From NCBI GenBank assembly GCA_029964075.1, contig CM057140.1, positions 6,218,643 through 6,282,642 of the forward strand: 64,000 nt of DNA, written 5' to 3'. The notes under the pieces are model-generated. The model made no database searches. It saw nothing but the letters and a program-made list of their open reading frames with translations, and was not told the DNA's origin. The translations under genes and the position numbers were made by a program. The DNA comes from Patiria pectinifera. Lineage: Eukaryota; Echinodermata; Asteroidea; Valvatida; Asterinidae. Shown here one piece after another: positions 18,071 through 59,773 of the stretch. How positions within the stretch are numbered: the first letter of the stretch is position 1; each line of letters opens with the position of its first letter.

Positions 18071-19340
18071 TTTTTCGCCTGTGTAGCGCCTAGCAAGAGC
18101 AAAAGGTTCAACTGAAATTTCACAGAAAGTTACATATCATCAATTTCTTAACACTCCCGTTTATAATTACGAATTTATCTACCCGTTAGATAAAATGTTA
18201 GAAGCAAAATTGTATTGGGCGTGATTTCCCGATTTCGTTTCGAAGTGCACATTGAACCCTTTGAAAATTTCCCCAAAATAAGAAAATACAAACTTAGTTG
18301 GGTTTGTAAGTAGAGACAATAATGGTTTATTAGAATTTATCAACTTTACAGAAATATGTAAATGTTAATTTGGTATTTTCAGAGATTTATTCAAGTGCGC
18401 CATGCACGTTAGGGATATACTCAGCCGTTTTTGTGCCAAATTTCCGGATGCCACCGTTTTTGAACTTCAGACTAACTTTCATAACACCGTAATTGTTCAC
18501 AGAGGATAAATGACAAGCATTAATTAGGTAAAAGTACCAGTATTCACTAAATGAATTTGAAGTTTATCAACAAAGAAGTTTGGCAATGTTACAGTCGGGG
18601 TAAACGTCGAAGTGCGCCACGTTATAGGGACTATAGGCGGTGGTCAGCAAAGGCAGCGGTTGAATAACTTGCTGGAGCGAGCACCTTTAATGTTTACTAT
18701 GCAGTGATTGTATGGAATGTCAACTTCACCACATGTAATTTGAGCCACCCGACCCTCACAACCAGCCCATTCACCCTGGCATGTCTGGAGTATCTCTCAG
18801 GCCCCAAACAGCCGTTAAAACCACAGACATAACCCCATTAGACATTCCATTTTGGTCACAGGGGTGATCGAACTAATCCCAATGTTTATAGTGCATTTGT
18901 ACACAAGCCTATGTAAATGTGCACAAGCACACAGGGTTTTCCCGCCAATTCCAACCCCTCCAGTAGGATCACAAGACTGACACCCCCTCTAAAGGACGTA
19001 CTATGGTCCATACTAGGATCTGGTGATAGATGGCCCCGGGTGAGTTTACCACGTGGCCAGGACAATATAAAACATAAGAAATGAGAAGATTCCATATTCC
19101 CTTCTGAATCCCGGTAAATAACGATGTCGATCTTGTCAAGGTATGTTACACCTTACCAGCTCATTGAAGAATGAATATATCACCGCTTGTTTGAGGCTTT
19201 ATTAGCTTATAATACATGTTGTTACGAAGTGAGATGGCCGTCCCATTCTTCTTCGTTGTTGCCATATGAAGCATCCCTGAATTAGAAACAAATACGTTAG
19301 GCCTACATTCAGTCCATTCCAAGTTCATAACTAGCAAGGT

Positions 19341-19344
19341 TTTA

Positions 19345-19404
<60 letters not shown>
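19341..19404. repeat. (TA)n microsatellite
   Basis: About 30 uninterrupted TA dinucleotides are followed by TTTAAAAAATC. Confidence 0.95.
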
Positions 19405-19407
<3 letters not shown>

Positions 19408-19867
19408 AAAAATCACCAATAGGTTAACCAACGGTCAGCATAAGGCCGCTGCTTATAACAAATCGGCGTCGTGACGACCGCTGTCGGTCTTCCTAACGCA
19501 AACGCGCATAAAAATCGGATAGAAATGAAGATCACTCCCATTTTCAGCCAAAATGATGCAAAGATAAATTGTCATTCCTAATTCGAGCACCATTGATTTT
19601 ATTTCAAATTTTTCACCTATTTCAGGACATTTCATTTTAGCTTAATGTCGACCAAATTATCGTTCATGTTGAAAGCTCACATTACAACGACCACCCAAAA
19701 ACTGCTTCTATCATTCAGTTACCACGTCTATATGTTGCTGCAAAGTTACAGAGGGTAATTTGACGAAACATTGTTTCTTTTTTTAGAAACCTTTTTTCGT
19801 TCGAATATCTCAGAGTCTTTGCAGCGAAATTTGATGACAATTTTCTGAGCATTTTCATGTTCTTCAC

Positions 19868-25305: not shown

Positions 25306-25414
25306 ATGAAGCTGCGACAGCGGAAAAAACAACCAATGGAGGTGTTGAGAAAATACTGCACCCTTGGTGAAGACAGGCCTGGACTTGTTTCACGCTTTGT
25401 TAATACAAATGTTG
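25306..25414 (+). CDS. Exon 1: N-terminal lead into the SET domain
   Basis: The exon encodes 36 residues starting MKLRQRKKQP and ending FVNTNV, plus one base of the next codon. The basic stretch RQRKK is followed by GEDRPGL, which I associate with the lead-in to SET domains of this KMT5A-like family. The donor is GTAAGG at 25415 and an acceptor TTCACAG ends at 25304. The ATG at 25306 is the first in-frame Met after that acceptor, so it may be the start or an internal Met. Confidence 0.7.
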
Positions 25415-28400
25415 GTAAGGATATCCATGTACATGTTCGTAGTTACTGCATTTGTTAAAAGCTCTATTTTTGCTATGGAGGTTGAATTATAATTGTGTTT
25501 TTTACATGCTGGTTTCAGGCATCCCCTTCACCAGGTTCACCCACATTTTCTTGTATTTTTCTTTCAATTCAAATCTTTTTTACCCTGCTTCACAGGACGC
25601 GGTGTCTTCACAACGGTGCCATTTCCAGCTAAGGCATTTCTGCTTGAGTATAGAGGGGACTTCATCCCTTTTAAAGAAGGAGAGAGGCGAGAGAGGGAGT
25701 ACAAGCCTGAAGCTGGAAGTTTTATGTATTTTTTTAAATACAATGGAAAGAGATGGTGGTGAGTACTAGTGCTCTATCCATCAGATTTGTATACAAATTG
25801 CTGTGATGCTAACACTCCTCAAAATACACTGGATCCTGAGTGTCTCATGTATGTTGTATACAACTCTCTGAGCATACTCTGGTTTTCAGTATTAGCCTGC
25901 TGGTCTCCAACCCCAGCCCATGGCAGCGGCTTTGGTAACAACAATGGAATACTTTTTATGCCCCGCGGCGAAGCCGAAGGGGCATACTGTTTCCGCCTTG
26001 TCCTTCCGTGGGTGGGTGTGTGTGTGGGTGTGTGTGTGTCCGGACAAATCTTGTCAGCACGATAACTTGAGAAATACTTAACATATGAACTTCAAATTTG
26101 GTTTGTGTATTGTTCTTGGTAATCCTAAGAACCCTTTTGCATTTGGGACCGGAAGGTCAAGGTCAAGGTCACAGTGACTAAAACAAAAGAAATTTTGTCA
26201 GCGCGATAACTTGAGAAATACTTTACATATGAACTCCAAATTTGGTTTGTGTATTGTTCTTGGTAATTAATCCTAAGAACCCTTTTGCATTTGGGGCCGA
26301 AAGGTCAAGGGTCAAGGTCACAGTGACTAAAACAAAAGAAATTTTGTCAGCGCGACAACTTGAGAAATACTTTACATATGAACTTCCAATTTGGTTTGTG
26401 TATTGTTCTTGGTAATCCTAAGAAGCCTATTGCATTTGGGGCTGAAAGGTCAAGGATCAAGGTCACAGTGGCTGAAACAATAGAAATTTTTTCAGCACGA
26501 TAACTTGAGAAATACTTTACATATGAACTTCAAATTTGGTTTGTGTAATGTTCTTGGTAATCCTAAGAGGCCTATTGCATTTGGGGCTGAAAGGTCAAGG
26601 GTCAAGGTCACAGTGGCTGAAACAATATAATTTTTTTCAGCACGATAACTTGAGAAATACTTAACATATGAACTTCAAATTTGGTTTGTGTATTGTTCTT
26701 GGTAATCCTAAGAAGCCTATTGCATTTGGGGCCAAAAGGTCAAGGGTCAAGGTCCCAGTGGCTAAAACAATACAAATTTTGTCAGCGCGATAACTTGAGA
26801 AATACTTTACATATGAACTAATTCAAATTTGGTTTGTGGATCGTTCTTGGTAATCCAAATAGGCCTATCGCATTGGGGGTCGAAAGGTCAAGGGTCAAGG
26901 TCACAGTGGCTAAAACAATAGAAATCTTGTATTTATTCTGTGATTATAGGGATAAGAGATTAATTCATATAAAACCTACAGAAGACACTAATGCTGTCAA
27001 TGAACGTTCCATGTGACCAAGGTACATGTACATGTAAGTTGATGTTAAAAGAGTGGTGTTATGTCATGGGAACAGTCACGGTTGCGGGGCATTTGTGTTT
27101 GTAAACACACCTGACTTGTTAATTCTGTTGTAAACGCTCCATGAATCTTTTGCTGTTTGCTGCTTCACTGATATAAGAATGTGTGTGCAAAGAATGTGCA
27201 AAAAAACCTTTACAGCTGTAGGTTAAAAGCCACTTTTTTTGTGTTAAAAACCCAAAGTGGCTTTTAACCTACCCCAACCTTTGAAATTTGCAGAATCTTG
27301 GATTCAGCAATGTTAGGATTAAGTTTATACATGTACTTCTGGAAACCTTAAGGCATCCCTTGAGGCAAGCCCTCTCCATCTTACTTTAGCAGGGGTCCTA
27401 ACGCGTTGGGTGTTTGAAAGCAGCCGAAATGATCCCAAAACCGCATTTACAATGGGGCGAAATAAATGAAATTAATCACTGTTTCAATCACAATTTTCCC
27501 TAAGACCCACATGCACCTACCCCTAATGACTATGAGAATTGGTCAGTGGTATTTCAGACCAAGATACCTACTAAATGTGGGGAAAAATGAAGAGCGGAGT
27601 AAACGACATACTTCGTGTACAATTCCCTCCATCACACTACACATGCGTTGAGCCAATGGCGAGTTCGACCATTCAGAGAAAGGGGGGGGGGGCAAATATT
27701 TGTTAGGTCATTTCTGGCGTCATGCCTGGCCGGAAAGAGTTCCATATACGAAGTTCACTTGACACCCCGTGTATAAAGGTTATGACACTGTTCTGAGAAA
27801 TGATCGATGTGTCATCTATGAAAATGCTCGTATTTTTTCACTGCTGAAATTGACTTCTATGACATGTAATTGTTTCTGGGGGGTGATGAATCATTATGGG
27901 GACAACTAAGTAAACCTTGTTTATGGAATTATTTCGGTCTGGCCTGCTGGAAGCAGTGTGATTTGCATTGCGGCACTATATACACCCCGCTCTCTGAATG
28001 ATCGAATCCACAAACAGTCTGGAACTCCACCATTGGCTCAATGCAAGTGTAGCGTGATGGAGGGAATCGTACACGAAGTATGCCCGGAAGTAGCTAGTTA
28101 AGTTGCACTATGAAATTGGTTCACTGGGAAAACCTTACAGAAATGGTTTAAGTCCTATGTGTTATGCCTGGTGTTGGCAGTAATAACTTACTCATGTACT
28201 AACAGTTTGGAACTACATGTACATGTACATTACCAGTTTGATATATTTATACATGTATACTTATTTGTACATGTAATATGCCACTAACACTACAAGTAGT
28301 TATCACACGAGCCCAAGTGGAACATGAAATAATGTCTTGCATCTGTGTCCAGCATAACACAAGGCTGAAGGTATACGGGACACAGATGCATTACATCCGT

Positions 28401-31400
28401 GTTCCACGAGTGCAAGCATGATAACGAATTTATCTTCAAGCAAACTTGACACACAGTATAGATGTTATACATGTAGGGGCCTATTTCTACGAACGCACCT
28501 TTGAATTTACAGTAAATATTGCAGCTGTTCTGTTTGTTTTGCTTTTAGCATAAAAATAGCCCATTGCATTGAGTTTGAATAGCGCATTACCTGAGGTCTG
28601 ATATAAACCGTACAATGCAGTGATACATCACAATACGTTGCCATGGATCAACCAATCAGATTGGCGAATTCAACTTTGCTTGAAGATAAGGTACGTTTTC
28701 TCTACTCTTAATTTTCATCCTGGGCTCAGCACCCAGTTTTGTGCTGGCTGAAAGCACTTGGATTGGAAAAAAGCATTAACAACGACTTCTCATTTACCAT
28801 TGACAATAGTAACTCAAGATAAAACCCTTTCACATCTTATTTCATCTGTATCTAGTGTGGATGCAACCCACTCAGAGGGTTTGGGGAGGTTAATCAATGA
28901 CAGCATTCCTACTGAGGCAAACTGTAAAGCTGTCATTGTCGACGACTGTCCTGGAGGCCTGAAACTCTGTCTGTTTGCCGTAAAAGACATCGACGCTGGA
29001 GAGGAACTGAGATATGATTATGGAGTTAAAGACCTTCCATGGAGAATTAAGGCAAGTAAATTATGTCATAATTGCAATTTCATTTAAGTTTTATGTCTTG
29101 TGCTTTCTTTTCCATGGTGCAAACATAAGGTGCAATGTTTCCTGCCCATTATAAGCAGCAAACAAAAACAAAAACAAGTTCTTTCATACAATGATACATG
29201 TATGTGAAATAACAAGTATTTTAATAAAAATATGGGCTAATGTTATTAGAGCAATTTCAGACTCTTTGGGAACTTCATTAGCTTTTGGCAACAATGCTGT
29301 TTCTGTGGAACAAATAACTCTTATTTAGAATCTGTAAAGAAACAATATACATGTACAAACAAGAGTTATCACTTTTAGTTGGGTATTCTCCCAACCCTTT
29401 GTGTTGAGGGAGCGTCTCAACAGTCGGAACGTTCCGCTGGGCACACTGGCCGTACTTTTCCTGGCATATGTGCCCGCCGGAACGTTCCATCGGAACGGTC
29501 CGCCAGAACGGTCTGCTAGAGGAAATATACTCGCCGAAGTGTGAATATGACGGTTTCCAACCAAGCGAGCTGGTACTCGTATTATGAGCTGGTACATTGG
29601 TTATCGTGCATCTTTGTGTGTGTGTGTGTGTTCACGAAAATGACTGAAAATGGCTCCAGTTGCGCGCGAATCTTGCCGTGACTGAAGATGTGTCACAGAA
29701 GCAACCTTTTTTCCTGTTTGGGTCTCATGTTTTATTGAATCAAACCCCAGATTACTGTTAATTTTATTTCATTGCAAATTGATAACATTAGGCCTAACTT
29801 GTCTAATTCAACAACGTACCTCATCGTCACACAAACGAAAGAAAATATTTAAGATAGGCACATGATACCCATTTACGGATATTCCATCTGGACTGTTCGC
29901 ATTCACAAAGGACCGCGGAACGTTCGCCGTTCCGACGGGCACACAGACCGTTCCAACGAAAGGCTGGAACGTTCCCGTTCCGACTTTTGAGACACTCCCT
30001 TAATGAAAATTTTTTGCAGTGTTCACATGTCCATTTATTATGGGATGCCCAGTAACATCATATGAGTGATCATCACAATAAAATTGTGATGATGAATCAT
30101 TGTTAGAAATGTTAAATGTGTTTTTGATTTCATTTGCATTTTTTGTCTTGTCAGGATTCACAAGCAGAGAACCAACCTGTCCAGAAAATGCCATCACCGC
30201 TGGAACAGTTGTCATTTTGTGGTCTGCGAAAGGTATATTTTTTTAATACAGGCACTTGGTATTGTTTCTGTTGATTTTTTGTTAAGAACACTTTCCACCT
30301 GGACAAGAAGCACCCGCTTATCGGTTGAAAAGAGCCATATTAGCAGGGAGTGTTCATTTTATTGGTAGCAATGCGACATTTATGCGTGCTTTTTATAGTT
30401 CATGAAGTTCAGTTCTGACCAAAAGAGCGTCCGTGGCTAGGAAAATTACACACTCTCTTGGTCCAGCTCGAGGCTCATACTGTCCATTTCTGTGGGGTGT
30501 GGCATCATGAAAAATAAAGTGTTATGTTAAATTGATAATTTTATTGAACAGTATTAGTTAAGAGCTTTCTAACAAGACATCCCTCAAAATTATTTGCCCA
30601 CAATAAGCAATCAAACAATTTGATTTTTTTAAAAATTTAGCACCCATTCATGATTCAGTTTTTGAAGGAAGGTAGTGTATGCATGCGCTTTTGTGACTGC
30701 AGTTTATGTCAGCCATATAGCTATGTAATAACTGAACACGTTGGCTTGTCATACCACAAGATTTGTACATGTACACTCCGAGAACATTTGAATTGTAAAA
30801 AGCTACTTTTAGGCAAGCAAATGCAATCAGGAAAATTTATTGAGGGACAGAATATTCCTTCAGATTTCAGTTTGGAAAAAAAATAATGCTCGGACAGTAC
30901 ACCATTAATAAATATATGAATTGTCTGCCAGCCAAAACATATGGTACATGTACATGTATGTGCAACAAGTGCACGTTAAAAATTTAATAAAAAAGTTCTC
31001 CAGAAAACACATTCTGTGTTGGAAATTTGGATAAATTCAAATTTGCTAGACATACAAGTAATGTGCCTCTGCTCAAATGGTGCATATCTGTCTGTGAAAG
31101 GATTTCCACATTCATCCCTTGTGATTTCCTGAGACAGTTTAGCATTCAGAGTTTCACCCTGTGTTTTCTTTCTTTTCTGTGCATTGCTCAGCCAACAAAA
31201 AGAGGAACAAAGAAGGGGACGATAAAAAAGGACGAGAGTGATGATGAATTTTCGCTGGGAGGTGGTGATGAACTACCACCCTGGCCATCCTCAGGTAAAA
31301 TGTCCACCAAATTCTATAAAACTTTCTCTTGGCAGTTTTTCAGTTAAGGTTTTCCAGAGAATTTGAATGGTCATTCACACTTGCAATGGATTTGTATGAA

Positions 31401-34400
31401 GTGGAGCACCCACAGACGAGCTCTGATGACCTGCTTACGACACATTTTGTGGGTCATTTAGTGTCATTTCAACATAATGGTACTTTAACCCCACAGCTTA
31501 AAATAAGCTACATGCATCTCCACACGTACATACCCATGCAAAGCCAAATTTTCCATCATTTATAAGTTCTTTTAATGGGCTGTGTCCCATAAAATAAAAC
31601 AAAATCGTACATGCAGTGCAGAGGAAATGTATTAGAAATGGCTTTTGGCCTGGAGGTATGCTTTTACTCTTTTTTACTTTATTTATTTTTTTGTTCATAG
31701 GGCCAAAAAAAAAATAGTTCTGCTTCCGATGACATGCCTTTCAAAAATACAATAAACTCCGGCTAAGACAGCACTCTCGGGACCAGAGAATTTGTGACGG
31801 CTTACGCGAATGTTGGCTTCTGCTGCAAGACGTCATTTTGCCGACTTACACAAATTGAATCACGGAGTGAAAAAAATTAATTGAATTTGGGCCTATGCAC
31901 ATCTGTATCTGGATCATGCAAACAAGATTTATGGCTAAAATTCAAAGGCTTTGATTTTACCCTGGTTTATTTCTACATCCCTGGTTGATTCCAGCAAATA
32001 TATCCTCAATGTTTATCATCACAAACAGGCTGTGGTATTGATCACAGAAAGTCATGCAAGACGGCCGATTTAAGCGATATGACGGTTTATACGTTGTCGG
32101 TTTAGCTGGAGTTTACTGAAGGGTCGGTCGGTCAGAAATTTGGGAGGGGGGGGGCAATTCTTTTTTATGCAGATTGAATGGGGTATTCAATTATATACGA
32201 AGTTTTAGCCTGAACTATTTCCATTGCACTATGAAAGCTATACACGAAAGTGAATAAAACCTACCTTTAATTATTGTCAATATATTTACGTTCAATAATT
32301 TCAAAAAATAATGGAAAATTCAGGTCATTCGCAGCATATGCACAACGCTAGTCAAGACGCGGGGAGCTGGCCAAAACTCCGAGGTGTTCGATGCGTGCGT
32401 GTGTGGCGAGCGGCCCACCGTGGGCTGACAGACCTGTTTTTAACGGTCAAAAATTTCGGGAAACACGCGGCATGTATCACTCCAAATACGAGTAGTGCGA
32501 TCTCAAACTTAAATCTTTAACACAGAAAATACATACACAGACAAGCTAGATCAATTCTGTAAATTAACTTGCAAAAATGTTCTTTCTCCATTGGTGTACA
32601 TGTATTCTTGGCATTTTTACGATGTTGAATCCGACCAGTTGACCGTGGCCTGCTCTGCTGGTGCGCTAGTCGCATAGCTATGGACTGGTTTCCGTATTTT
32701 CATCATGTCTTCTAAATTATAGGTGATTATAGTCACCGTGACATCGAATTGCAAAGTAGTTATATCGCGAAGCGAAAGTTTGTAAATATAATGGAGGTTT
32801 CTTTTGAAAAAAAGTGAATGTAAGTAAGAAAACAAATAAATACTAGCATTATTTTATGCAAAAGGGTTGTTAAAAGGTATTTTGAGACAGAAAAGACGAC
32901 AAGACTTTTTTTCATTTATTCAATTTTTGTTTGGAATTGCCGATAAAATTTTTAGGGTTGAAGCCTAAATATAGGGTCGGTCAGGATACCGGAAGCAGAA
33001 CTATTCTCTTTTTTGGGGCCTAATGTAAGCAACAGAATTGGGAAAACATTGTTCATGACACTCTTTCACTGTTCAAAGTTACTAGTTCTCAGAACTGTTT
33101 CTCAAAAGTAAGTTGTACTTTTGACTCGTTTGTAGATGGCATTGGCTTGTGTTTTTATAAATAAACACAGGTCAGTGAGTGTGTCACATATGGCTAAGAC
33201 CAGTTTGTTTTTTCAAGGTATTTCACGTGCTCAGGATTGCGTATGCATGCAAGCTCAGAAATGCGCTCATGCTCAGAACTTTTAAAAAGGACCGGTATGT
33301 TTTCCGCCACCAAGCGCCTCAAGTTGTGAAAGTATCACATGACATGTCAATTGGTCTGGTATTTCATGCAGAAAGGCTGGATGTCATAGTCTATAAACTT
33401 CCAAAGCAAGCATTGAATTAAAAGGCCAAGCTGAAGTCGTTATATTTGACTGCAGTCAGGGAATTTGGTTGAGTTTGGATGGGATGATTCGCCATTTAAT
33501 AATCTATTTCATTATGAATACATGCACATATTATTTTCTTCAAAATTCAGTTTAAGAATTGCTTTTCTTTCTTTGCTGAAGTGCAATGTGAATACAGATG
33601 AATGGCATTGTTCCTTGTGACTGAGGAGAAAGCACCATCAAATCTAGACAAAGCATCCTGTTTCGCAAGGAGTTTTTGTTGAATTGGGTCTAATGTGTGC
33701 CAAATACATGTTAAATTGGCCTCAGAATGTACTTAGAACCTTAACCCATGCTTACCTGCTCTGCAGTGTACGTAGTATTCCATTTAAATAATATTTATTA
33801 ACAGAAAATCAATAAACTGCACAGTGCTCTAGTGGTTTGGAACTTTGCATTGTTGTTTCAAGTGCTACATCAACTAATGGGTTAATGACTCAACTTGTGT
33901 TTTACTTAGGGTCGGACTCTGATTCCAGCAATTATGTCCCCAGCTCCAGTGATGATGAGAGTGATGTGTTTGAGCCACTGCAGCTGCCAAGTTCAAGTAA
34001 GTTGATATTTAATGTGAAGTAATTAGTAAACTCTGAGTTGATTTCCCATTGCTGTAATAGTCCTTTTACCTAACAATTTTTTTTGTACTATAGTCTGGAC
34101 ACTAATTTCAGTGAATTACATGTTGTATGTTAATAGGGAAGGCAAGTTGTACAGTCACCCCGAGTGAACACCATTCCAGTGAAGAAGGTATGGGCAGTTG
34201 CAGTGTTGTGCTTATCAGTGATACCATGAAGGGAATATAAGTCTAATTACATGTACAGCTCATATGTAGTTTTCTACTTTTTGCATTAGAGTTTGATTTT
34301 CCGTTTGCTGCCTTATTTAACTGTTAGGGTTCACTGTTTAGGGTGAAAAAGTAAAACTGGCATTATACTTCTCTATATTTTATGTCAGGAAACTTCGGTT

Positions 34401-37400
34401 TTATGCATCTTTGATTTCTTTCTTTCACCTTCTCAAATAAGTAGTTACCCACCCCTTCCTAGGTTGTCACCAAAAGTTTATTTATTGTTTTATTCATAGA
34501 AATAAAGAGTGTAGTACATACTTGGTAGTAAGATAATTTGTCTTTGGTTTCGGATTTTTCCTTTCCATGCTAGAATGTGAGAAAAGGTGTGGATCTTCAT
34601 CTGAGGTATGTGTAATGCAGGATCTAGGGTTTTTCCAATTTTCAACGTTTTGATGTGTTCTAAAATTTTAATCTACTGGAAATCTGCATATAAAAATGTG
34701 CTTTATCCATTGGGATGCCAGTTTAGCTTCATCTGCATGCCTAATTACTACTAAAATTAATGAGAGTTTTAGTTTTACTTGCACCATTGTGACTTTCATT
34801 TCCTGTAATTCTTTTCTTTTGCATTTTATATTCTCGCTTTATTGTTTTAAAAGCATCCCTGTTGGTTATCAGTCAAGAGATAGTTCTATTGTGTAGTTGA
34901 CATAATATTCTTTTTAGGAATACAGTAAACTCCGGCTAAACCGACAACGTATAAACCGTCATATTGCTTAAATCGACCGTCTGTCAAGATTGTCTCTAAT
35001 GCATTTCCATTGACAAATTTTGTTTCTAAGCCGGCCATTATAAGCCGCCATTTCGCCTATATCGTTACTTTCAGTCTCATTTCCTCAAAGCCACACAAAT
35101 TCCTCTGTATAAGTCGGCATCATGCTCTGGGGTTTATAAGAAGTGTCGAGTGAAAAGTCCCACACACTGCTTTTTATGGCACGGCCCGTGATTGATGCAC
35201 GTGCGCGATCAAAAAGGGGTTTTCCCGATTGCACATCAATACCAGCACCCCCTCTCGACTGCACGCATGCACTCTGTTCATTTTGGGAGTCCCCTTATTG
35301 TACCAGTTCCATGCACATACGAACATACGTGCACAATGTACATGTACACTACATGCACATGGCCGGCCATGGACGTGCAGTATGCAAGTGATCTGTATCG
35401 TACCACTGTTAACGCTTGCCGGTCGCGTTGTCCTTGCTTCGTACGCACATACATGTACATGCATGATTTTCTGTGATCAATACCACAGCCTGTTTGTGAT
35501 GATAAACATTGAGGATATATTTGCTGGAATCAACCAGGGATGTAGAAATAAACCAGGGTAAAATCAAAGCCTTTGAATTTTAGCCATGAATCTTGTTTGC
35601 ATGATCCAGATACAGATGCGCATAGGCTACATGTATAATTCAATCTATTTTTTTCACTCCATGATTCAATTTGTGTATTTGTGTAAGTCGGCAAAATGGC
35701 GTCTTGCAGCAGAAGCCGACATTCGTTTAAGCCGTCACAAATTCTCTGGTCCCGAGAGTGCCGTCTTAGCCGGAGTTTACTGTACTATATTTCCTTTCCC
35801 ATTTTTAGTTTTATGCTCTGGTTTGAAGTGCATGTTTCTCATTTTTTATTTTAATTTCCATTTTGGGGATGATCCTTTACAAAGAGTTAATACCCTCGTT
35901 GCGTTTAACTTTGTATTGTTGATGCATTGTTTTGACCAGATTGAATAGAAATGGCTAACAGGATGTTTTTGTTGAGAGCTCTCTACCATTTTGAGTGACT
36001 GCTCTCTGGGAAATTACAAGTAAGTTTTATACAGTGTGCATGTTCCTTGCCAACTTTAACATGGTTTATTTCCTTAAAATGGTTAAATGTATTGTCAGTA
36101 TGTTGGTTTTTTTTTTCCATTTTGGTTGGAGGTTTTAGGCAAATAGTTTTAAATCTTGTTCTGTAACATAACAAGTTAAAAGGAACGTGTTTTAGTTAGT
36201 AAGGTAAATGTATTTAGGATTTATGGATTTTTTGTTTTCATGGCTATGTAAACTTTAGGTTTTATTTCCTGACAATTGAAGTTGGAAAATGGTGTTTTCA
36301 AAGATAGGATTGCCTAGTCATGCTGTTTGCACACAATTTATGCTTGTTTTTTTTTAAATTTTTTTTTTAGGTTAACCCTGCAACCTCAAGCAGACCTAAG
36401 CGCCCCTGTGTTTACTGCGGGGAAATGCAATCACAGCTCAATAGGCACTTGAGGCGGCGGCATAAAAGTGAAGAGGAGGTAAAGGCTGCTCTTAACCTAC
36501 CAGATCAAGAACGACTTAAAGCAATGGCCACACTGAGAAAAGACGGAATCTACAAAGAAAACCTCACCAGGTTAAACACTAGCGACGGTCACGATGCCAC
36601 ATTGCTAAGGGAGAGGTGTCAAGGGTCATCAGAGGTCGTAATGTGTGGGCAATGCAGGGGTTTTTACAGTAAGCACAGAATTTGGCGGCATAAACAAATA
36701 TGTCATGAAACAGCTGTCAACAAAGTGGCATCCGTTCCTGTGACTTCTCTAGTAGGAGTGAAGGATAAGAAACACGATATGTTCCAGACGAAAATCTTGG
36801 ACAGGTTCCGTGGTGATGAAGTGGGGAATGTTTGTAGAAGTGATTCTATGATCATCAACCTGGGAAAGAAGTTGTGGTCAAAATCTGCTACAAGAGAGAA
36901 GGCAGTTGTAATGAACGACATGAGAAGGCTCGGACACTTGCTGGTCAAATTGAGGCACCTGTCAGGGAAGCCAAATCTGGTTGGGGAGGATCTCATCCGA
37001 CGAGAAAATTTTCCCAAATTAGAGGAAGCTCTGGATGAGTTGACCGAGAAAGAATCAAATGAAATGAAGCATGGGCTTCGTCTCAGTATTGGGTACTTGC
37101 TTAAGAAGGCTGCCAAGGTTATGAAAGCGGTGTACATCATTGATGGTAGGCTTGATCTTGCTGAGGAGGTGGACCGATTCCTTGCAGTACTTGACCTCAG
37201 CTGGGACTTTCTGTTCAACAGAAGCCTGTATGCAGTTGAAGGGAAACGCCAGGCAGTACTTAGGAAGCCTCACTCCATGCCTCTGGAAGAGGATATCATG
37301 AAAATGAAGAACTACACCATCAAGTCTATGAATGAGATCATCAATGACCAGTATTTGGCCTGGGATGAGCATGTGTACACTACTCTTCGGTCATTGATTG

Positions 37401-40360
37401 TGAGTCGCCTGACTCTATTCAACGCTAGAAGAGGGGGTGAACCTGCACGCTTAACAATGTCTGAATGGCAGGATGGTGTATCTCAAGCATGGATAGATCC
37501 TCAGCTCGTCGAGACAGTCAGCGATCCAATGGAAAAGGCTCTGCTGCAGTCATTCAAGTTGATGTACCAAAAAGGCAAAGGGAGTCGAAAGCTTGTCCCA
37601 GTCCTCATTCCCCATGACACTCTGAAACCAATTCAGGTTCTTGTAGAGATGAGGAAAGATGCAGGGGTTTCTTCAGACAACGTATTTTTGTTCGCCTACA
37701 CCCAGAAATCAGCAAATCATGTCAACGGATGGTCGGCGATTAAGGATGTCACCAAGGCTATGGGAAATCAGCTATCAAATCCTTCCAACCTAACCGCTAC
37801 CAAATACAGACACAGGGCGTCAACTCTCTATGCGTTACTTGATGTAGATGAAGGGGAGAGGCATCTCTTCTACAAGCACATGGGACATTCAGAAGCCATA
37901 AATAAGAATGTATACCAGTGTCCCCTTGCCGTCAAGGAGATCACAACAGTAGGCAGATACCTCAACACCATTGACGGAAAGTGTGCCTTTAGTAAGTTTG
38001 CATATAAGAAAAAACGGAACAAAATTTCTTTTGAATTTTTTTGGAGATTGTGTTATTAACTCATACACAGTCATGGATGGCTGAACAGTCATTGTTTTTG
38101 GACAATGAGACAAAGAGGGCTTGGGACCATATTTCCCTTGAAATGCCATAAGCATAAATCCTATTCAGTTCTCCCTCTCTCTTATGAAAAGTTTGTGATG
38201 GATAGGCCAGATGTGTTCACAATGCAGTCAGGTAAATAATTACATATCTAAATGGTTAACTGGAGGACCATGGTCAGGATATTTTTTTTGGAATAATTCT
38301 TGCACTATCTTTACATTTTTGGGTATGAGCGTAGTCAGTCCCTACAAATATTCTCTTCTCTGTAGTCAACCAAACTATCTTGGACATTGATGGTAACTGT
38401 ATGCTCTAACAGCTACACATTTTTTTAGGCCTAAAGCCTATGCAAAGCAAATCATTTCGACCATTAAGATATGTAATGATTCTCCTGACTGCATTGTCAA
38501 CACATATGTCCTTTTCATCACAAACATTTCACAGGAGAGAGGGAGAACTGAATAGGATTTATACTGGCAGTTTGAGTGAAACTTGGTCCCAAGTCCTCTT
38601 TGTCTCATTGTCAAAAAAATGAGCGTTCAGCCATCCATGACCATGTGAACGAATAACACATCATTGGAAAGAGGGAATCTGTGGCTTTAAGTTGCTGCTA
38701 GGCATTTGGTGTAAAATTAACCCAGTCTCCACAAAAGTCAAAAGAAATTTTGTGGTTTTTTTATACCCACTGTATATACATGTTTGCAAACCTTCACCGA
38801 CTAGCCCAGCACTTACCATGTTTGAGATCTTCTCTTTCCTCTTTGGATTCAACTTCCAGGCACAGTATCACAAATGAATGATTTTGAGGCAGGCATGCAA
38901 CATGTCTTGGATTTGCCATTTTCCTTATTTCATTGTTTTTCATGCAGACCATTGTGAATAGAAAAAAAAAACACCATTGTGAATACAAGTAGAAAAAATA
39001 GTAGATGTACAAGGTCTCTTATGGTTTGGAATTGTCTTTTGTTTAATAACTGTAGCATGACAGGTTTGTCATATGGTACTACAACAATCTTTACCTCATT
39101 CAACAATTTTGTGGCAATCCCTAACCCTTTGTATTGTATGTGATTTTGAGCCACGGTGAAGGTGTTTTCCTTGACAATGCTCTAGAAACATATTCCAGTG
39201 CCATTTGTTTTTCTAAATGTGCAGATAAAGTACACAGAGCTGCCTCGGCACTTCCTGCAAAACCCAGCCTGCCCGTTGAAGAACCTAGCCAATCCAGTGC
39301 AGACCTCGGCCCATCCCGGGAAGACTCCAGTCAAGCCAGTAAAACTTCAGAAAACTCAGTGCCATCTACAGCTGCCATGCCAACAAGCAACCACTCATCC
39401 ACTGACCACAATAAGGACACTCATGCCACAGGTAAAACATTCGCCTGTAGCATGTATATGAGGATGCATCTGGCAGAGCCATGTAAATGCTGTACCTTAT
39501 GAAATTGCATAGAATTAGTGCATTTTCCTACAAAACATTAATTATTTTCCTCTTTTGCCCATTAGCAATTTATTTATGTTTCTTTTGACTCCATGTCTTT
39601 CTTAAAAGGTGGACTGACATCAGTCTTTGCTACTCTATCCCAGGCTGTCTTTGATAAGTGCCTGTCTGTTGTTACATTTATTTAGACTTAAAGATATAAA
39701 CTGCCAAGGTCAAAAGTATGCCGCAAAAAATATGAAGGATCAAGTCAATTCCTCCCACATTCAGAACAAGAATTTTCTTCACAAGATCTTAAACTATGTT
39801 CATTTTTAACAGGACGCCTGTACACCCGATGGGCGCAGAAAGAAACTAAAACCCTGCTGCAAGAGTTCAAGCCTTTCATCCAGGACAGATCCAAAACTGG
39901 GACCAAGGGGTCACTTCCCAGTAAGACATAATTTGATCTTTGTTTTATCAAGACATTTTCAAGAAGTGGCTAAGCTGAATGAAACTTATTGGCCAAAAAT
40001 TTGCAGTAAATCATAGGAAAGTGTGTGGGGCAGGTTTTATAAACAATCCCCACTCTTTTAGTTTATAAAACCTGGCCCTTTCTTTCCTTATTAAGTCCCT
40101 GTCTACAGTGAATAGTATTTATAGCAGTACATGTACATGTATTTCTTAAAATGAGGTATTTGCATTACAATGTCGCTGACAGTGTACATGTATTCTGTAT
40201 GTCTGAAGGTAAACAAGAGGTCCTGTCCTTCATCACGAAGCACCCTGAGGTCCTGCCAGGAGCGGTGAACCAGAAGCAGAGGATCCACTTGATCAAAGTC
40301 AAGGTCTTCAATGAACGCACCAAATGGAGAAACAAAGTTTCAACATTATCTAAAATCTAA
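25306..40360 (+). CDS. Chimeric SET (KMT5A/SET8-like) - C2H2 - tyrosine recombinase-like gene, 12 exons
   Basis: Spliced model: 25306-25414, 25596-25758, 28856-29051, 30155-30232, 31192-31294, 33910-33996, 34137-34187, 34574-34605, 36371-37991, 39225-39431, 39813-39920, 40209-40360. All intron phases agree and the total is 2,907 nt, 968 residues plus stop. Order: SET domain (about 37-150), acidic Ser-rich linker (157-273), C2H2 fingers (286-304, 365-385), tyrosine-recombinase-like domain (to about 790), Ser/Pro linker, and a basic Trp-containing C-terminus. KMT5A-type SET domains methylate lysine, classically H4K20; this protein's substrate is unknown. Multi-copy KMT5A-like genes with the NDS/NDD motif and an HMGHS-type C-terminal module are, from memory, present in fish and invertebrates. 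Upstream exons cannot be excluded, because an acceptor precedes the start codon. Nuclear, chromatin- or DNA-related function is inferred from the domains. Confidence 0.85.
25596..25758 (+). CDS. Exon 2: SET domain, first half
   Basis: Residues 37-90 begin GRGVFTTVPF, the glycine-rich first SET motif that contacts the methyl donor. EYRGDFI and FMYFFKYNGKRW follow, matching the KMT5A pattern (EYHGDLI, YMYYF.Y). The acceptor is CTTCACAG, the donor GTGAGT at 25759 and the phase 2. The split codon TG/T encodes the Cys of CVDAT. Confidence 0.88.
25958..27092. mobile_element. ATGCCCCGC-ended repeat element with ~146-bp internal tandem units
   Basis: It starts ATGCCCCGCGGCG and ends GCGGGGCAT, giving short inverted ends. 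Inside are six units of about 146 bp, at about 26061, 26206, 26355, 26500, 26644 and 26790. Each holds AACTTGAGAAATAC, TTTGGTTTGTG and TCAAGGTCA. It lies in intron 2. Similar repeats occur in several marine invertebrate genomes, from memory. Confidence 0.7.
27218..27272. repeat. Perfect 19-bp-stem hairpin
   Basis: GTAGGTTAAAAGCCACTTT at 27218-27236 is exactly complementary to 27254-27272, with a 17-nt loop. It sits in intron 2. It could be a foldback remnant; it is shorter than typical animal microRNA precursors. Confidence 0.8.
27607..28082. mobile_element. Foldback element in intron 2
   Basis: The outer ends are CATACTTCGTGTAC and its complement, and the inverted arms continue for about 60-70 bp with few mismatches (ATTCCCTCCATCAC, then GAGCCAATGG). 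The interior is non-coding. The target duplication is not resolved. Confidence 0.75.
28856..29051 (+). CDS. Exon 3: SET domain, second half with catalytic motifs
   Basis: Residues 91-156 include CVDAT, GRLINDS (101-107), CLFAVKDIDAGEEL and RYDYG (143-147). These are the SET motifs for cofactor binding and the catalytic Tyr. The canonical NHS is NDS here, with Asp106 in place of His. The acceptor is TATCTAG. The best donor is GCAAGT at 29052, a GC-AG intron, which gives phase 0 and joins cleanly to exon 4. Confidence 0.85.
29407..30000. mobile_element. Inverted-repeat element in intron 3
   Basis: The termini are AGGGAGCGTCTCAACAGTC and the complement of AGGGAGTGTCTCAAAAGTC. Subterminal GGAACGTTCC palindromes recur inside both ends. 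The interior of about 500 bp carries a GT microsatellite and no transposase. Confidence 0.7.
30155..30232 (+). CDS. Exon 4: linker
   Basis: The 26 codons start DSQAENQPVQKMPSPLEQ and end GLRK, phase 0 on both sides, between acceptor TTGTCAG and donor GTATAT. No domain is recognised. A second frame is also open across the exon, so phase 0 rests on the GC donor of exon 3. Confidence 0.6.
31192..31294 (+). CDS. Exon 5: basic-to-acidic linker
   Basis: It encodes PTKRGTKKGTIKKDESDDEF then GGGDELPPWPSS, a basic patch that could be a nuclear localisation signal followed by an acidic run. The acceptor is TTGCTCAG and the donor GTAAAA, phase 0 to 1. Confidence 0.65.
31750..32118 (-). mobile_element. 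Tigger/pogo-like MITE, internally deleted, intron 5
   Basis: On the minus strand it starts CAGTAAACTCC(A/G)GCTAA. It matches the two ends of the 860-bp element at 34923-35782 in opposite orientation but lacks most of that element's interior. CAGTAAACTC ends fit the Tigger/pogo group of Tc1-mariner elements, which target TA. Confidence 0.7.
33910..33996 (+). CDS. Exon 6: acidic serine-rich linker
   Basis: It encodes GSDSDSSNYVPSSSDDESDV then FEPLQLPSS, a low-complexity acidic stretch with casein-kinase-like Ser-Asp context. The acceptor is TTACTTAG, the donor GTAAGT and the phase 1 to 1. Confidence 0.65.
34137..34187 (+). CDS. Exon 7: small linker exon
   Basis: The 51-nt exon encodes KASCTVTPSEHHSSEE, phase 1 to 1, so it could be skipped without a frameshift. 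The acceptor is TTAATAG and the donor GTATGG. Confidence 0.5.
34574..34605 (+). CDS. Exon 8: micro-exon
   Basis: The 32-nt exon encodes ECEKRCGSSSE. It converts phase 1 to phase 0, as the next exon requires. The acceptor is CATGCTAG and the donor GTATGT. Support comes from phase agreement and good splice sites; RNA evidence would be decisive. Confidence 0.45.
34923..35782 (+). mobile_element. Tigger/pogo-like non-autonomous element, intron 8
   Basis: It has terminal inverted repeats CAGTAAACTCCGGCTAA and a TA on each side (34921-34922, 35783-35784). The interior has ACATGTAC-rich sequence but no transposase motif. Open frames within it are not supported as genes. Confidence 0.78.
36371..37991 (+). 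CDS. Exon 9: two C2H2 fingers and tyrosine recombinase-like domain
   Basis: This 1,621-nt uninterrupted exon encodes residues 274-813. Finger 1 is C286-x2-C289-x9-H299-x4-H304. Finger 2 is C365-x2-C368-x11-H380-x4-H385. A helical region follows, then recombinase motifs: ARRGGEPARL (box I Arg about 627), KGKGSRKLVPVLIP (beta-hairpin Lys), TKYRHRAST (box II Arg 753, with Thr where His is usual), HMGHS (His 779) and NVYQ (Tyr 788). The Arg-to-His and His-to-Tyr spacings match tyrosine recombinases. Such enzymes cut and rejoin DNA through the Tyr; activity here is unproven. The donor is GTAAGT at 37992. Confidence 0.85.
38049..38660. mobile_element. Long-arm foldback element directly after exon 9
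   Basis: The two arms, 38049-38265 and 38440-38660, are inverted copies of each other with moderate divergence. Shared blocks include TCATGGATGGCTGAAC, TTCAGTTCTCCCTCTCTC and ACAATGCAGTCAGG. It begins 57 bp after the exon 9 donor and separates it from exon 10. Ends TGTGTTATT and AATAACACA mark the borders. Confidence 0.75.
39225..39431 (+). CDS. Exon 10: Ser/Pro/Thr-rich linker
   Basis: It begins KVHRAASALPAKPSLPVEEP and ends DTHATG. The composition suggests a disordered tether between the recombinase-like domain and the C-terminal module. The acceptor is AATGTGCAG and the donor GTAAAA, phase 1 to 1. Confidence 0.65.
39813..39920 (+). CDS. Exon 11: C-terminal module, first part
   Basis: It encodes GRLYTRWAQKETKTLLQEFK, then PFIQDRSKTGTKGSLP. 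The W-x-x-x-E pattern followed by an amphipathic helix resembles Myb/SANT-like DNA-binding modules that close related genes, by memory of the family. The acceptor is TTTAACAG and the donor GTAAGA, phase 1 to 1. Confidence 0.65.
40209..40360 (+). CDS. Exon 12: C-terminal module and stop codon
   Basis: It encodes KQEVLSFITKHPEVLPGAVN, then a Lys/Arg-rich tail ending LSKI before TAA. It completes the Trp/basic module begun in exon 11. No AATAAA signal is visible between the stop and 40530, where a large palindrome starts. The 3' end of the mRNA is therefore not placed. Confidence 0.65.
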
Positions 40361-40529: not shown

Positions 40530-43330
40530 CTATTTCAAGATATGGCAAATTTATGATGACGTTCATCGCGGTAATGTGACATGCATGTGAAATTGATTTT
40601 TTTCTTTGGATGAAGGATAAGGGTTGAATACGGAATGATGAAGTATGGCTGCAAAATAGGGGTAGATGCAGAGTGGGGGTTGAATGAAGGAAGGGATTGG
40701 ATGCAGGATTGGGTTAGCATGCAGAGTTGCATCAGGATGTTAGATTGGGATAGGATGCAGGATTGGGGTAGGATGCAGGATTAGGGGAAGGGATGTTGGT
40801 TTGGGGTTGGATGCAGGATGGAGGTTGGATGCAGGATTAGGGGTAGGATGTTGGTTTGGGGGTACGATGTTGGTTTGGGGCTTGATGCAGGATTGGGGGT
40901 ACGATGTTGGTTTGGGGCTGGATGCAGGATTGGGGTAGGATGCAGGATTGGGGGTAGGATGCAGGATTGGGGTAGAATGATGGATGGGGGTAGGATGCAG
41001 GATTGGGGGTAGGATGCAGGATATGGGTAGGATGCAGGATTTGGGGTAGGATGCAGGATTGGGGGTAGGATGCAGGATTGGGGGTAGGATGCAGGATTTG
41101 GGTTAGGATGCAGGATTGGGGTTAGGATGCAGGATTGGGGTAAGGATGCAGGATTGGGGTTAAGGATGCAGGATTGGGGTAGGATGCAGGATTGGGGGTA
41201 GGATGCAGGATTGGGGGTAAGGATGCAGGATTGGGGAAGGATGCAGGATATGGGTAGGATGCAGGATTGGGGGTAGGATGCAGGATTGGGGGTAGGATGC
41301 AGGATTGGGGGTAGGATGCAGGATTGGGGGTAAGAATGCAGGATTGGGGGGAGGATGCAGGATTGGGGTAAGGATGCAGGATTGGGGGTAGGATGCAGGA
41401 TTGGGGGTAGGATGCAGGATATGGGTAGGATGCAGGATTGGGGGTAGGATGCAGGATATGGGTAGGATGCAGGATTGGGGGTAGGATGCAGGATTGGGGG
41501 TAGGATGCAGGATTGGGGGTAAGGATGCAGGATTGGGGGTAGGATGCAGGATTGGGGGTAAGGATGCAGGATTGGGGGTAAGGATGCAGGATTGGGGGTA
41601 GGATGCAGGATATGGGTAGGATGCAGGATTTGGGGTTGCATGCAGAATTGGGGGTAGGATGCAGGATTGGGGGTAACGATGCAGGATTGGGGGAAAGGAT
41701 GAAGGATTGGGGTAGGATGCAGGACTGGGGGTAAGGATGCAGGATTGGGGGTAGGATGCAGGATATGGGTAGGATGCAGGATTTGGGGTAAGGATACAAG
41801 ATTGGGGGTAGGATGCAGGATATGGGTAGGATGCAGGATTGAGGGTTGGATGCAGGATTGGGGGTAGGATGCAGGATTGGGTGTAGGATGCAGGATTAGG
41901 GTAGGATGCAGGATTGGGGGTAGGATGCAGTATTAGGGGTAGGATGCAGGATTGGGGGTAAGGATGCAGGATTGGGGGTAACGATGCAGGATTGGGGGTA
42001 GGATGCAGGATATGGGTAGGATGCAGGATTGAGGGTTGGATGCAGGTTTGGGGGTGAGGATGCAGGATTTGGGGTAGGATGCAGGATTGGGGGTAGGATG
42101 CAGGATTGGGGGTAGGATGCAGGATTGGGGGTAGGATGCAGGATTCTGGGTAGGATGCAGGATTGGGGGTAGGATGCAGGATTGGGGGTAGGATGCAGGA
42201 TTAGGGTAGGATGCAGGATGGAGGTGTGATGCAGGATTGGGGGTAGGATGCAGGATGGGGGTAAGGATGCAGGATTGAGGGTAGGATGCAGGATTGGGGT
42301 AGGATGCAGGATTGGGGGTAGGATGCAGGATTGGGGGTAGGATGCAGGGGGGGGTAAGGATGCACGATTGAGGGTAGGATGCAGGATTCGGGGTAGGATG
42401 CAGGATTGGGGTAGGATGCAGGATTGGGGGTAGGATGCAGGATTAGGGTAGGATGCAGGATGGAGGTGTGATGCAGGATTGGGGGTGGGATGCAGGTTTG
42501 GGGTAGGATGCAGGATTGGGGGTAGGATGCAGGATTGGGATAGGATGCAGGATTGGGGGTAGGATGCAGGATTGGGGGTAGGATGCATCATAACCCAATC
42601 CCGCATCGTACCACCAATCCCGCATCCTACCCCAATCCTGCATACTACCCAAATCCTGCATCCTACCCCCATCCATCATTCTACCCCCAAACCTGCGTCC
42701 TACCCTAATCCTGCATCCTACCCCAATCCTGCATCCTACCCCCAATCCTGCATACTATCCCAATCCTGCATCCTACCCCCAATCCTGCATCCTACCCTCA
42801 ATCCTGCATCCAGCCCCAAACCAACATCGTACCCCCAATTCTGCATCCAGCCCCAAACCAACATCGTACCCCCAAACCAACATCCTACCCCAATCCTGCA
42901 TCCTACCCCAATCCTGCATCCAGCCCCAAACCAACATCGTACCCCTAAACCTGCATCCAGCCCCAAACCAACATCGTACCCCCAAACCATCATCCTACCC
43001 CTAATCCTGCATCCAACCTCCATCCTGCATCCAACCCCAAACCAACATCCCTTCCCCTAATCCTGCATCCTACCCCAATCCTGCATCCTACCCCAATCCT
43101 GCATCCTATCCCAATCTAACATCCTGATGCAACTCTGCATGCTAACCCAATCCTGCATCCAATCCCTTCCTTCATTCAACCCCCACTCTGCATCTACCCC
43201 TATTTTGCAGCCATACTTCATCATTCCGTATTCAACCCTTATCCTTCATCCAAAGAAAAAAAATCAGTTTCACATGCATGTCACATTACCGCGATGAACG
43301 TCATCATAAATTTGCCATATCTTGAAATAG
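40530..43330. repeat. Large palindrome with 19-bp minisatellite core
   Basis: The outer arms are inverted copies: CTATTTCAAGATATGGC at 40530 pairs with GCCATATCTTGAAATAG ending at 43330. Identity is very high for at least several hundred bases. The core is GGATGCAGGATTGGGGGTA repeated close to 97 times on the + strand (about 40730-42590). It then switches to the complement for about 29 units (42590-43150). Minus-strand frames of 225-286 codons here arise because the unit has no stop in any frame on that strand. Confidence 0.93.
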
Positions 43331-45560: not shown

Positions 45561-46767
45561 GATTACGGTTAAGGAGGATCAACTGCCATTCTTTCATACA
45601 CCCTTGCTATCCTGTGTCTGGATTCGTGTTCTTGTACTTATCCACCACCATTGAAAAGATGCCAACAGATGCCAACGGTGCATTCATTTCAATTCTAGGG
45701 TTCAACCTAGCAAGTCAAACTACCTTGAAGGTGCACAATACACAAGCTATGAGCAAGCGGCACTTTAAATCCACCTGCAGTAGTCACCGCTATTTTTCCG
45801 CTTTCACTAATACCTGCCGGCGGTGGTGGCAAGTCCAGTATGGGGATCGGATTAATAGTATATACATCTGGTACGGAAATCAACAAGTAGAGGAGTCTGA
45901 TCGGGGTATTATTTAAAAACCAGTGGACCATCAGACAAGTTCCACCTCTATACAGCGAAGGCTTTCAATTCGAGTCTTACACGTAAAACATGTTATCATT
46001 GCCCCCGTCCGATCCGATCATTTAGGAAAAATCACATGTTAACAAAAGAAGGTAAACTGCCATTCTTTCATACACGCTTGCAATCCTGTGTCTGGATTCG
46101 TGATCTTAAACTTATCCACCACCATTGAAAAGATGCCAACAGATCAGAGGGACACTATACGGTCTTTAAGCTTTGATTGCTATTTGCGGAAAGAAGAAGG
46201 AAAAGGGGCTTTGAAGTTGGAACAATCCCTAACTTCCCCTCTCCTCCCATAACACACACACCCACTGATCTTTGAACCCCGCCTTTGCCTTTGTTTATTT
46301 GCTCCACTTGTTAATTTAACCATCTCTCAAAGATAACCCAAACTGCACTGTTGGCTGCTATTTCGATCCGCTACAGTCCACGTACCTTGTTCCTTTGTAA
46401 TTCCATCCTGAGAATGACTTTGCCTTTTAATAGTATTTTACACTGTTTCATTCAACAATAGGTTTGTAAATATATTCAGTAAAAAGACGGGTGTCTTTTG
46501 AGCTATAAAATTATCTGGTCAACGTATGACTGTTATAATACTATAACATACGGTCGTAGCAAGGCGGCTCATTTTAAGACTGGTCTCATTAAAGTGGCTA
46601 TATTGCATGATGGTCACGGTAAGGGGGATATAAAATCAACATCAAAATTCTTTCCCATTATGATCAGACGATTTCTTAGTAATCAGTTAATTTCATTCCT
46701 ATATTATGAGACATAATTCAGACAGCCATCAACGGGCAGCCATCTTTTTCTTGATACTGATGCTATG

Positions 46768-47253
46768 CAGCCTGTCTAAAAAAAAAAAAAGAAGGTACAA
46801 TCAGAAGAAAAAAATTGGCTCAATATGAAAATCCTAAATAATTTATTCTTACTTGGCATAATATTAAAGAACAAGACTGAGCTTTCCAATAGTGTTTGTT
46901 TGATCTAATTCGGTTTTGTCAACTCAGAGATATAATCAATTTAATGAGATACACCAAAATCGATTTTGTGCAACCTTTATGTATGGGCAGAGTTGTTTCG
47001 AGTACTGGGCCATGCTGTCTTGAAGCTCACAAAAGATTGCAAGCAGAAAGTATCACAAACTCGATTTTTGTGTTCCGCAGTAAACTGGAATTATCTGTGG
47101 ATTTACAAAAGCAAATGAGATGAAACAAAAAGTATTGGAAAGCCTGGTCTTTTTTTCTTTAATGTGATGCTCAAAACGACTTACTTATGTTCAGATTTAA
47201 TATTCAAAGAAAAAAATTGTTTTTCGATTGTACCATTTTTTTTAGACAGGCTG
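46768..47253. mobile_element. Inverted-repeat insertion in tandem unit 1
   Basis: The ends are CAGCCTGTCTAAAA and its complement TTTTAGACAGGCTG. The 486-bp segment is missing from units 3 and 4, which read straight across at GATGCTATAGTATAATC. The 75-codon frame inside starts with TTG and has no recognised domain. Confidence 0.78.
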
Positions 47254-48544
47254 TGATATAGGCCTATTATAATCATTTTGGAGAAAGTCAATGCGGATCA
47301 TCTTATTTATTCAGTAAAAGTCACCGGCATCCAACAGGCTTTTTTCCGCGGGGATACTCCTGCCTTACAGTGAAACAGAAACGCTTTGATCCTTGGTTTT
47401 ACCTTGAACATTAAATTCACATATTGCAAACTTTAACCGTTGTCCTCATCAACGGTGCATTCATTTCAATTTTAGGGTTCAACCTAGCAAGTAAAACTAC
47501 ATCATTGAGGTGCACAGTAAACAAGCTATGAGCAAGTGGGACTTTAAATCCACCGGCAGAAGTCGCCGCTATTTTTCCGCTTTCGCTGATACCTGCCGGC
47601 GGCGGTGGCAAGTCCAGTATGGGGATGGGATTAATAGTATATACATCTGGTACGGAAATCAACAAGTAGAGGAGTCTGATCGGGGTATTATTTAAAAAAA
47701 CCAGTGGACCATCAGACAAGTTCCACCTCTATACAGCGAAGGCTTTCAATTCGAGTCTTACACGTAAAACATGTTATCATTGCCCCCTCCGATCCGATCA
47801 GCTAGGAAAAATCACGTTAACAAAAGAAGGTAAACTGCCATTCTTTCATACACGCTTGCAATCCTGTGTCTGGATTCGTGATCTTATACTTATCCACCAC
47901 CATTGAAAAGATGCCAACAGATCAGAGGGACACTATATGGTCTTTAAGCTTTGATTGCTATTTGTGGTAAGAAGAAGGAAAAGGGGCTTTGTGGTTGGAA
48001 CAATCCCTAACTTCCCTCTCCTCCCATAACACACACACCCACTGATCTTTGAACCCCGCCTTTCACTTTGTTTATTTGCTCCACTTGTTAATTTAACCAT
48101 CTCTCAAAGATAACCCAAACTGCACTGTTGGCTGCTATTTCGATCCGCTACAGTCCACGTACCTTGTTCCTTTGTAATTCCATCCTGAGAATGACTTTGC
48201 CTTTTAATAGTATTTTACACTGTTTCATTCAACAATAGGTTTGTAAATATATTCAGCGAAAAGACTGGTGTCTTTTGAGCTATAAAATTATCTGGTCAAC
48301 GTATGACTGTTATATTACTATAACATACGGTCGTAGCAAGGCGGCTCATTCTAAGACTGGTCTCATTAAAGTGGCTATATTGCATGATGGTCACTGTAAG
48401 GGGGGTATAAAATCAACATCAAAATTCTTCCCTATTATGATCAGACGATTTCTTAGTAATCAGTTAATTTCATTCCTATGTTATGAGACATAATTCAGAC
48501 AGCCATCAACGGGCAGCCATCTTTTTCTTGATACTGATGCTATG

Positions 48545-49026
48545 CAGCCTGTCTAAATGAAAAAGTGGTACAATCAGAAAAAAATTGGCTCAATATGAAA
48601 ATCCAAAATAATTAATTGTTACTCGGCATAATATTAAAGAACAAGACTGGGCTTTCCAATAGTGTTTGTTTGATCTAATTCGGTTTTGTCAACTCAGAGA
48701 TATAATCAATTTAATGAGATACACCAAAATCGATTTTGTGCCACTTTTATGTATGGGCAGAGTTGTTTCGAGTACTGGGCCATGCTGTCTTGAAGCTCAC
48801 AAAAGATTGCAAGCAGAAAGTATCACAAACTCGATTTTTGTGTTCCGCAGTAAACTAGAATTATCTGTGGATTTACAAAAGCAAATGAGATGAAACAAAA
48901 AGTATTGGAAAGCCTGGTCTTTTTTTCTTTAATAAGATGCTCAAAACGACTTACTTATGTTGAGATTTAATATTCAAAGAAAAAAAATTGTTTTTCGATT
49001 GTACCATTTTTTTTTTAAACAGGCTG
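48545..49026. mobile_element. Inverted-repeat insertion in tandem unit 2
   Basis: It is the same element at the same relative position as in unit 1, with slightly eroded ends (GTCTAAATGA on the left, TTTAAACAGGCTG on the right). Shared position means it was duplicated along with the unit. Confidence 0.78.
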
Positions 49027-52010: not shown

Positions 52011-53905
<1,895 letters not shown>

Positions 53906-59480: not shown

Positions 59481-59773
59481 ATTGGGGGGGGGGGCTGGGG
59501 GTGGCAAGGGAAAGATGTCTTAAATGTCCAGTATGTTATCTTTCCGAAATCAAGGAAATGCGGAAAATCGGATATTCACTTTTAATAGGTTTCCGTAGAC
59601 AGCTAGGCCTACTGTGTTTCGCTCGAAATTAAAAAGCGCGGGAGAAACAGAACTAGGTTCGGATCCCACTTTTTCCAAGCTATTTTGTTTCCGTTGCAAC
59701 TTTTTTTTCCCTTGCTGAAATCAGTTTAACACACTACGCAGAATTTTTTGAAATATTTTGTTCATAACCCTAC
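59481..59773. other. Short non-coding stretch
   Basis: It contains a G-rich run near 59485 and otherwise nothing recognised. Confidence 0.45.

Follow-up and report, generated by a model that had tools for sequence, protein, structure and literature searches.

A gene of the asteroid Patiria pectinifera that joins a SET domain to a divergent tyrosine recombinase (YR) lies, in our reading, within a mobile element, and we estimate the probability at about 0.75 that this element is an autonomous tyrosine-recombinase DNA transposon, which lands in dinucleotide-repeat DNA and has its SET domain fused to its recombinase. The gene was followed in a stretch of 64,000 nucleotides, here called the window (C12:6218643-6282642), and the genome survey was carried out in one assembly of 613.5 Mb with 1020 contigs.

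On the plus strand of the window, twelve exons between positions 25306 and 40360 were joined at the sequence level into a single frame of 968 amino acids with consistent phases and splice sites. Ten of the eleven introns are GT-AG and one, following exon 3, is GC-AG; exon boundaries were set by eye and by reading frame. Exon 1 (25306-25414) contains the first ATG of the model, and exons 2 (25596-25758) and 3 (28856-29051, with the GC donor) encode the N- and C-terminal halves of the SET domain; all three agree with the frame and have matches in a relative on C4, the two SET exons having PDB matches as well. Exons 4-8 (30155-30232, 31192-31294, 33910-33996, 34137-34187 and 34574-34605), which encode an acidic linker, were placed by phase and splice sites only, exon 4 having in addition a weak match in the C4 relative (E 0.01). 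Exon 9 (36371-37991), with zinc-finger-like motifs and the recombinase, is backed by its C4 match, by motifs and by profiles. Exons 10-12 (39225-39431, 39813-39920 and 40209-40360) were again placed by phase and splice sites; the C-terminal region that they encode looks Myb-like and resembles the C-terminus of the L036 ORF, in both respects by eye only, and gave no Pfam match above the cut-off. The C4 relative retains exons 1, 2, 3 and 9 in the same order and on the same strand, with about 60% identity in exon 9, and no convincing match to exons 5-8 and 10-12 was found there. The earlier note on this DNA, which gave no exon boundaries of its own, had claimed one 12-exon gene at 25306-40360 with a KMT5A-type SET domain and a zinc-finger tyrosine recombinase. 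Frame, phases, splice sites and single ORFs at other loci bear out the gene, and both domain names hold; the span is correct for the gene and comprises less than half of the element (19405-53644).

The spliced SET sequence from the window (136 amino acids) matches the whole Pfam SET model over its positions 1-105 (3e-17). Among 98 matching distinct PDB sequences the 14 best are all KMT5A/SETD8 (2.4e-22 to 2.2e-20), with the next at 4.2e-12, and judged by these matches the N-terminus of the window gene is a KMT5A-type SET domain. KMT5A methylates H4K20; fish and invertebrate genomes contain multi-copy genes called KMT5A-like, which may, we presume, belong to the same family as the SET-YR genes. 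In the window, C4, C10 and TG-family (a second family, described below) sequences, the coding sequence of the SET domain is interrupted at the corresponding point (splice sites were fully checked in the window only), which suggests a single capture before the families parted. The intron at this place holds six tandem units of 145 bases in the window (26046-26930). Between the window and C4, nonsynonymous and synonymous values are 0.31 and 0.77 over 118 SET codons and 0.28 and 0.85 over 530 YR codons, for which no ratio is given because synonymous sites are saturated; at the level of this comparison both halves are under amino-acid constraint.

The window copy has Asp in place of the His in the NHS motif of KMT5A and hence no intact NH. 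The motif reads NDS in the window, NDA on C4 and C10, NDD at 10.07 Mb on C3, NQG on C20 and NHG in the TG family, so that NH is retained in the TG family only and is ND or NQ elsewhere. Since the motif varies among families, methyltransferase activity of the element SET domain is plausible at most. It is quite possible, though we lean the other way, that the element is mobile and its SET domain no longer an enzyme, having become a chromatin- or protein-binding module. The change of the His to Asp or Gln in most families examined speaks for this, whereas the Asn and the YDYG-type motif are preserved in most sequences examined, the TG family keeps NH, and PRDM9 is active without the His of the NHS motif.

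The gene is part of an element of 34.2 kb (19405-53644, plus strand). A copy on C19 is collinear with this whole interval; on either side the two copies cease to match at one and the same point, beyond which their flanks are unlike. The two copies show 49 mismatches and 55 gap openings in about 19.3 kb of aligned columns, compared in four stretches, two of which overlap by about 260 bases, with the tandem-repeat part left out. The element is bordered by an (AT)26 tract on the left (19353-19404) and an (AT)93 tract on the right (53645-53830); apart from these two edge tracts, the only AT run of at least 8 units in the window is one of 9 units immediately behind the right tract. The left-end sequence used for the copy search (19405-19434, plus strand) was found at three places in the genome (reversed control 0), each time with an AT tract in front of it, of 26 units in the window, 8 on C19 and 37 on C7, where 10-12 bases of TTTATTTATTT stand between tract and end sequence. 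The right-end sequence likewise occurs at three places, followed by 93, 81 and 4 AT units. Two copies of the window family have both ends; by pattern search the left end of the copy at 15.68 Mb on C7 and the right end of the copy at 18.70 Mb on C7 were not found. In a third copy (C7, 18.67-18.71 Mb) most exons are near-identical, exons 6-8 lying outside the compared sequence. When the terminal 700 bases on either side of the window element were compared, a single inverted match of 17 bases and no direct repeats came out. A search for an empty site with the left flank only listed 41 matches, one of them full-length (the window itself) and the other 40 confined to the repeat at 18700-19122. This repeat, just left of the element, is interspersed; it has at least 39 other copies, about 400-420 bases long and 98-100% identical, and one fragment.

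Of ten non-repetitive ORFs of at least 110 amino acids, taken from the window element and one TG element, none matched a Pfam family at E up to 0.1, and the remaining element sequence consists of intron, minisatellite and repeat. Further cargo genes were rejected on this basis, within a scan of non-repetitive ORFs of at least that length. As far as can be recognised from its sequence, the SET-YR gene is the only gene of the window element, and as the element has been copied recently, a mobile element thus appears to carry its own chromatin-type domain. The minisatellite (40659-43200) has units of 18-19/37 bases (GATTGGGGGTAGGATGCAG) and changes strand near 42584. Downstream of the gene, 45673-52058 contains several long direct repeats with units near 1.2-1.8 kb that are about 94-96% alike, and introns 5 and 8 share about 325 bases in inverted orientation (31748-32058 and 35460-35784), whose copies are about 91-92% alike across element copies.

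The second family, the TG family, came to light through three copies with common ends, whose 4.6 kb around the YR are 96.7-98.2% alike. Its left-end sequence was found at 10 places and its right-end sequence at 13, distributed over several contigs and next to flanks that differ; the ends pair into ten elements of 15.3-18.1 kb, leaving three right ends unpaired. GTGT precedes the end at all ten left ends. Of the 13 right ends, 10 have five or more consecutive TG units within 40 bases, as do 3 of the 10 left ends. The remaining flanks are by eye mostly TG-rich or alternating purine/pyrimidine, and one lone right end (C7, 21.2 Mb) has neither kind of flank. GT/AC runs of at least six units occur at 0.035 per kb in the sequence examined, which is a non-random sample. 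From these flanks TG-rich DNA is the likely target of the TG family; the tracts could also belong partly to the element ends and not to the target, 7 of the 10 left ends having no five-unit run. No direct or inverted repeats were found in 700 bases at each TG-family end. SET and YR matches are present in all ten elements, the YR match being open throughout in four and interrupted by stops in six. In a TG element, the start of an ORF that by eye contains a segment like window exon 1 lies about 200 bases or less from the left end, and the gene thus seems to occupy most of the element's length. To the right of the window element, 178 bases (59772-59949) are 93% like a stretch that occurs in both orientations inside the TG-family sequences L039, L041 and L043; this is probably an unrelated small repeat.

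We consider it very unlikely that the copies are a domesticated host gene family, composed of SET and a former recombinase, that spread through segmental duplications whose breakpoints coincide with simple repeats. Such a family would fit the many degraded copies and the concentration of 43 of the 86 YR loci found on C7, which makes up 7.3% of the assembly, but the same end sequences recur with differing flanks at the 10 left and 13 right places of the TG family, and the YR motif residues are preserved. A single domesticated gene was rejected for the same recurrence of the ends at several places. The earlier note had offered three roles for the protein, namely domesticated control of mobile DNA, programmed rearrangement, and a transposon protein with a chromatin module. 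The element that holds the gene is present in several copies with constant ends and unlike flanks, and 49 mismatches in about 19.3 kb separate the window and C19 copies; this gives no support to the first two roles and fits the third best.

Exon 9 encodes two zinc-finger-like Cys/His motifs and a domain that we take as a divergent YR from its motifs, weak profile scores and the behaviour of the element. All ten aligned family members share R-x-G-E, GK, R and T without variation, and GH with a Tyr nine residues on, the spacing of YRs, is found in all nine rows that reach this region; R, K, R, H and Y thus follow each other in the family alignment in the order, and with the GH-to-Y spacing, of YRs. 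The His of box II (HxxR) is replaced by Thr in all ten rows, and this Thr aligns with the Xer His. One of the ten members matches a PHROG integrase family over the expected region (1.2e-4), and hhalign against XerD/XerC/FimB/FimE gave E 6e-4 at a probability of 28.6% with GK, R, GH and Y in register. Pfam gave no YR match for exon 9; among the 11 Pfam families matched by the ten members at E up to 1 there is no YR, DUF3504, integrase or DUF3435 model. PDB profile searches with the exon 9 family found no YR, and a scan of IMG/VR for relatives gave 20 pattern matches, none of which was confirmed. These missing Pfam and PDB matches are what would be said for a recombinase that is not a YR, with copies that arose otherwise, for instance through capture by a different transposon. 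We hold this to be highly improbable in view of the order and spacing of the motifs, the PHROG match and the Xer alignment, and of the ORFs scanned, among which there was no other transposase.

At three other loci the C-terminal half of SET, a repetitive acidic linker, zinc motifs and the YR lie within one unspliced ORF, of 1359 amino acids on C20, 1117 on C10 and 1310 on C3, where the YR is cut short. The linker in the single-ORF copies (L031 1-1268, L051 and L049) consists of in-frame peptide repeats with a motif that differs per family. Genome-wide, at least 87 SET matches fall into at least 67 loci, host SET genes included, and at least 134 YR matches into at least 86 loci; all these counts are lower bounds because the searches score best candidates only. 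A YR on the same strand lies no more than 15 kb downstream at 34 of the 67 SET loci, again a lower bound (24 with the first YR search alone, 34 after a second was added), while none of the 67 has a YR on the opposite strand and two have one upstream. Chance neighbourhood was rejected, as 1000 shuffles with random placement gave a mean of 0.39 SET loci with a downstream YR and a maximum of 5, with the lengths of some contigs entered as round approximations. A reading in which the element has separate, neighbouring SET and YR genes that the window model joins in error is hardly credible and was rejected, for although window exons 5-8 and 10-12 are based on phase and splice consensus only, the single unspliced ORFs of 1359 and 1117 amino acids contain both the C-terminal half of SET and the YR.

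Several known systems resemble the SET-YR elements in part. SETMAR likewise combines a SET domain with a transposon enzyme, a mariner transposase, but is a host gene, whereas the SET-YR fusion is itself mobile; PDB chain 3bo5, among our SET matches, is presumably SETMAR. The fungal Starship has a DUF3435 captain, unlike our elements, as DUF3435 is absent from the Pfam families matched by the YR members. Cryptons are YR DNA transposons in which no reverse transcriptase was found, without terminal repeats, and occur in animals including sea urchin (Kojima and Jurka 2011, PMC3212892); according to that work animal Cryptons have no C-terminal domain. The window element is similarly, in our reading, a YR transposon without long terminal repeats. 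Unlike animal Cryptons, the SET-YR gene has an N-terminal SET domain and a C-terminal region, the elements measure 15-34 kb, and the absence of DUF3504 and integrase models from the 11 Pfam families matched (ten members, E up to 1) does not place them in the Crypton/DUF3504 clade. HarbingerS and MuDR transposons of Phytophthora have incorporated SET histone methyltransferase genes (PMC12730594, 2025) and are thus also DNA transposons with a SET gene; they belong to other superfamilies, in an oomycete, and the sections of that paper drawn on here describe neither a YR fusion nor a KMT5A-type domain. For endogenous nimaviruses, YRs with a zinc-binding domain, partly encoded by multi-exon genes, and integration into simple repeats have been described (PMC10871703), which resembles the multi-exon SET-YR gene with its zinc motifs, YR and simple-repeat sites. 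The targets of nimaviral YRs are telomere repeats or 28S rDNA, and (AT/TA)n insertions are there made by a DDE enzyme (PMC10871703). No viral gene was recognised in the SET-YR elements, and SET goes without mention for the nimaviral YRs in the passages of that source on which we rely. The DIRS retrotransposons of Symbiodinium are also YR elements with an acquired epigenetic writer; according to PMC5890265 these are DNA methyltransferases that share the ORF of the reverse transcriptase and not that of the YR. Our elements probably differ from these retrotransposons, whose writer modifies DNA and lies outside the YR ORF: a scan limited to ten ORFs and part of the frames gave no reverse transcriptase, and the comparison of the ends showed no long terminal repeats. 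Each ingredient, SET in transposons and YRs that target simple repeats, therefore has precedent, and a transposon with SET and YR in one chain was not found reported in the literature searched, most subscription journals and Repbase Reports being outside the search.

As a mechanism for the transposon we propose that the YR would recombine repeat-like cores at the two ends of the element and so release it as a circle, which would insert by recombination between its core and a chromosomal dinucleotide tract. Any target duplication would then be hidden in the repeat, and the lack of long terminal repeats together with tracts that continue the element edge is as expected if a short core of the circle, rich in AT or TG, is recombined by the YR with a chromosomal tract. 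Least certain is the part of the SET domain, which may modify a histone or another chromatin protein at the donor or target, or counter host silencing; if so, this would be the reason why it stays fused to the site-binding enzyme. Candidate roles are local histone modification, evasion of silencing and tethering. H4K20me1, the KMT5A-type mark, follows the replication cycle, and a more far-reaching version, which we regard as improbable, is that SET steers the transposon by reading or writing replication-linked chromatin, timing excision and re-insertion into dinucleotide tracts to a phase that raises copy number. Were this true, the recombinase encoded by the element would come with a chromatin writer of its own, timed to replication.

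SET has been kept in one chain with the YR across families whose recombinases are about 25% identical, which suggests a role for chromatin modification or binding in the movement or persistence of these elements. The SET-YR elements may serve as a test system for how a site-specific recombinase finds its targets in chromatin and why dinucleotide repeats are landing sites, and could be used to test whether eukaryotic recombinases with a preference for TG or AT tracts exist as tools.
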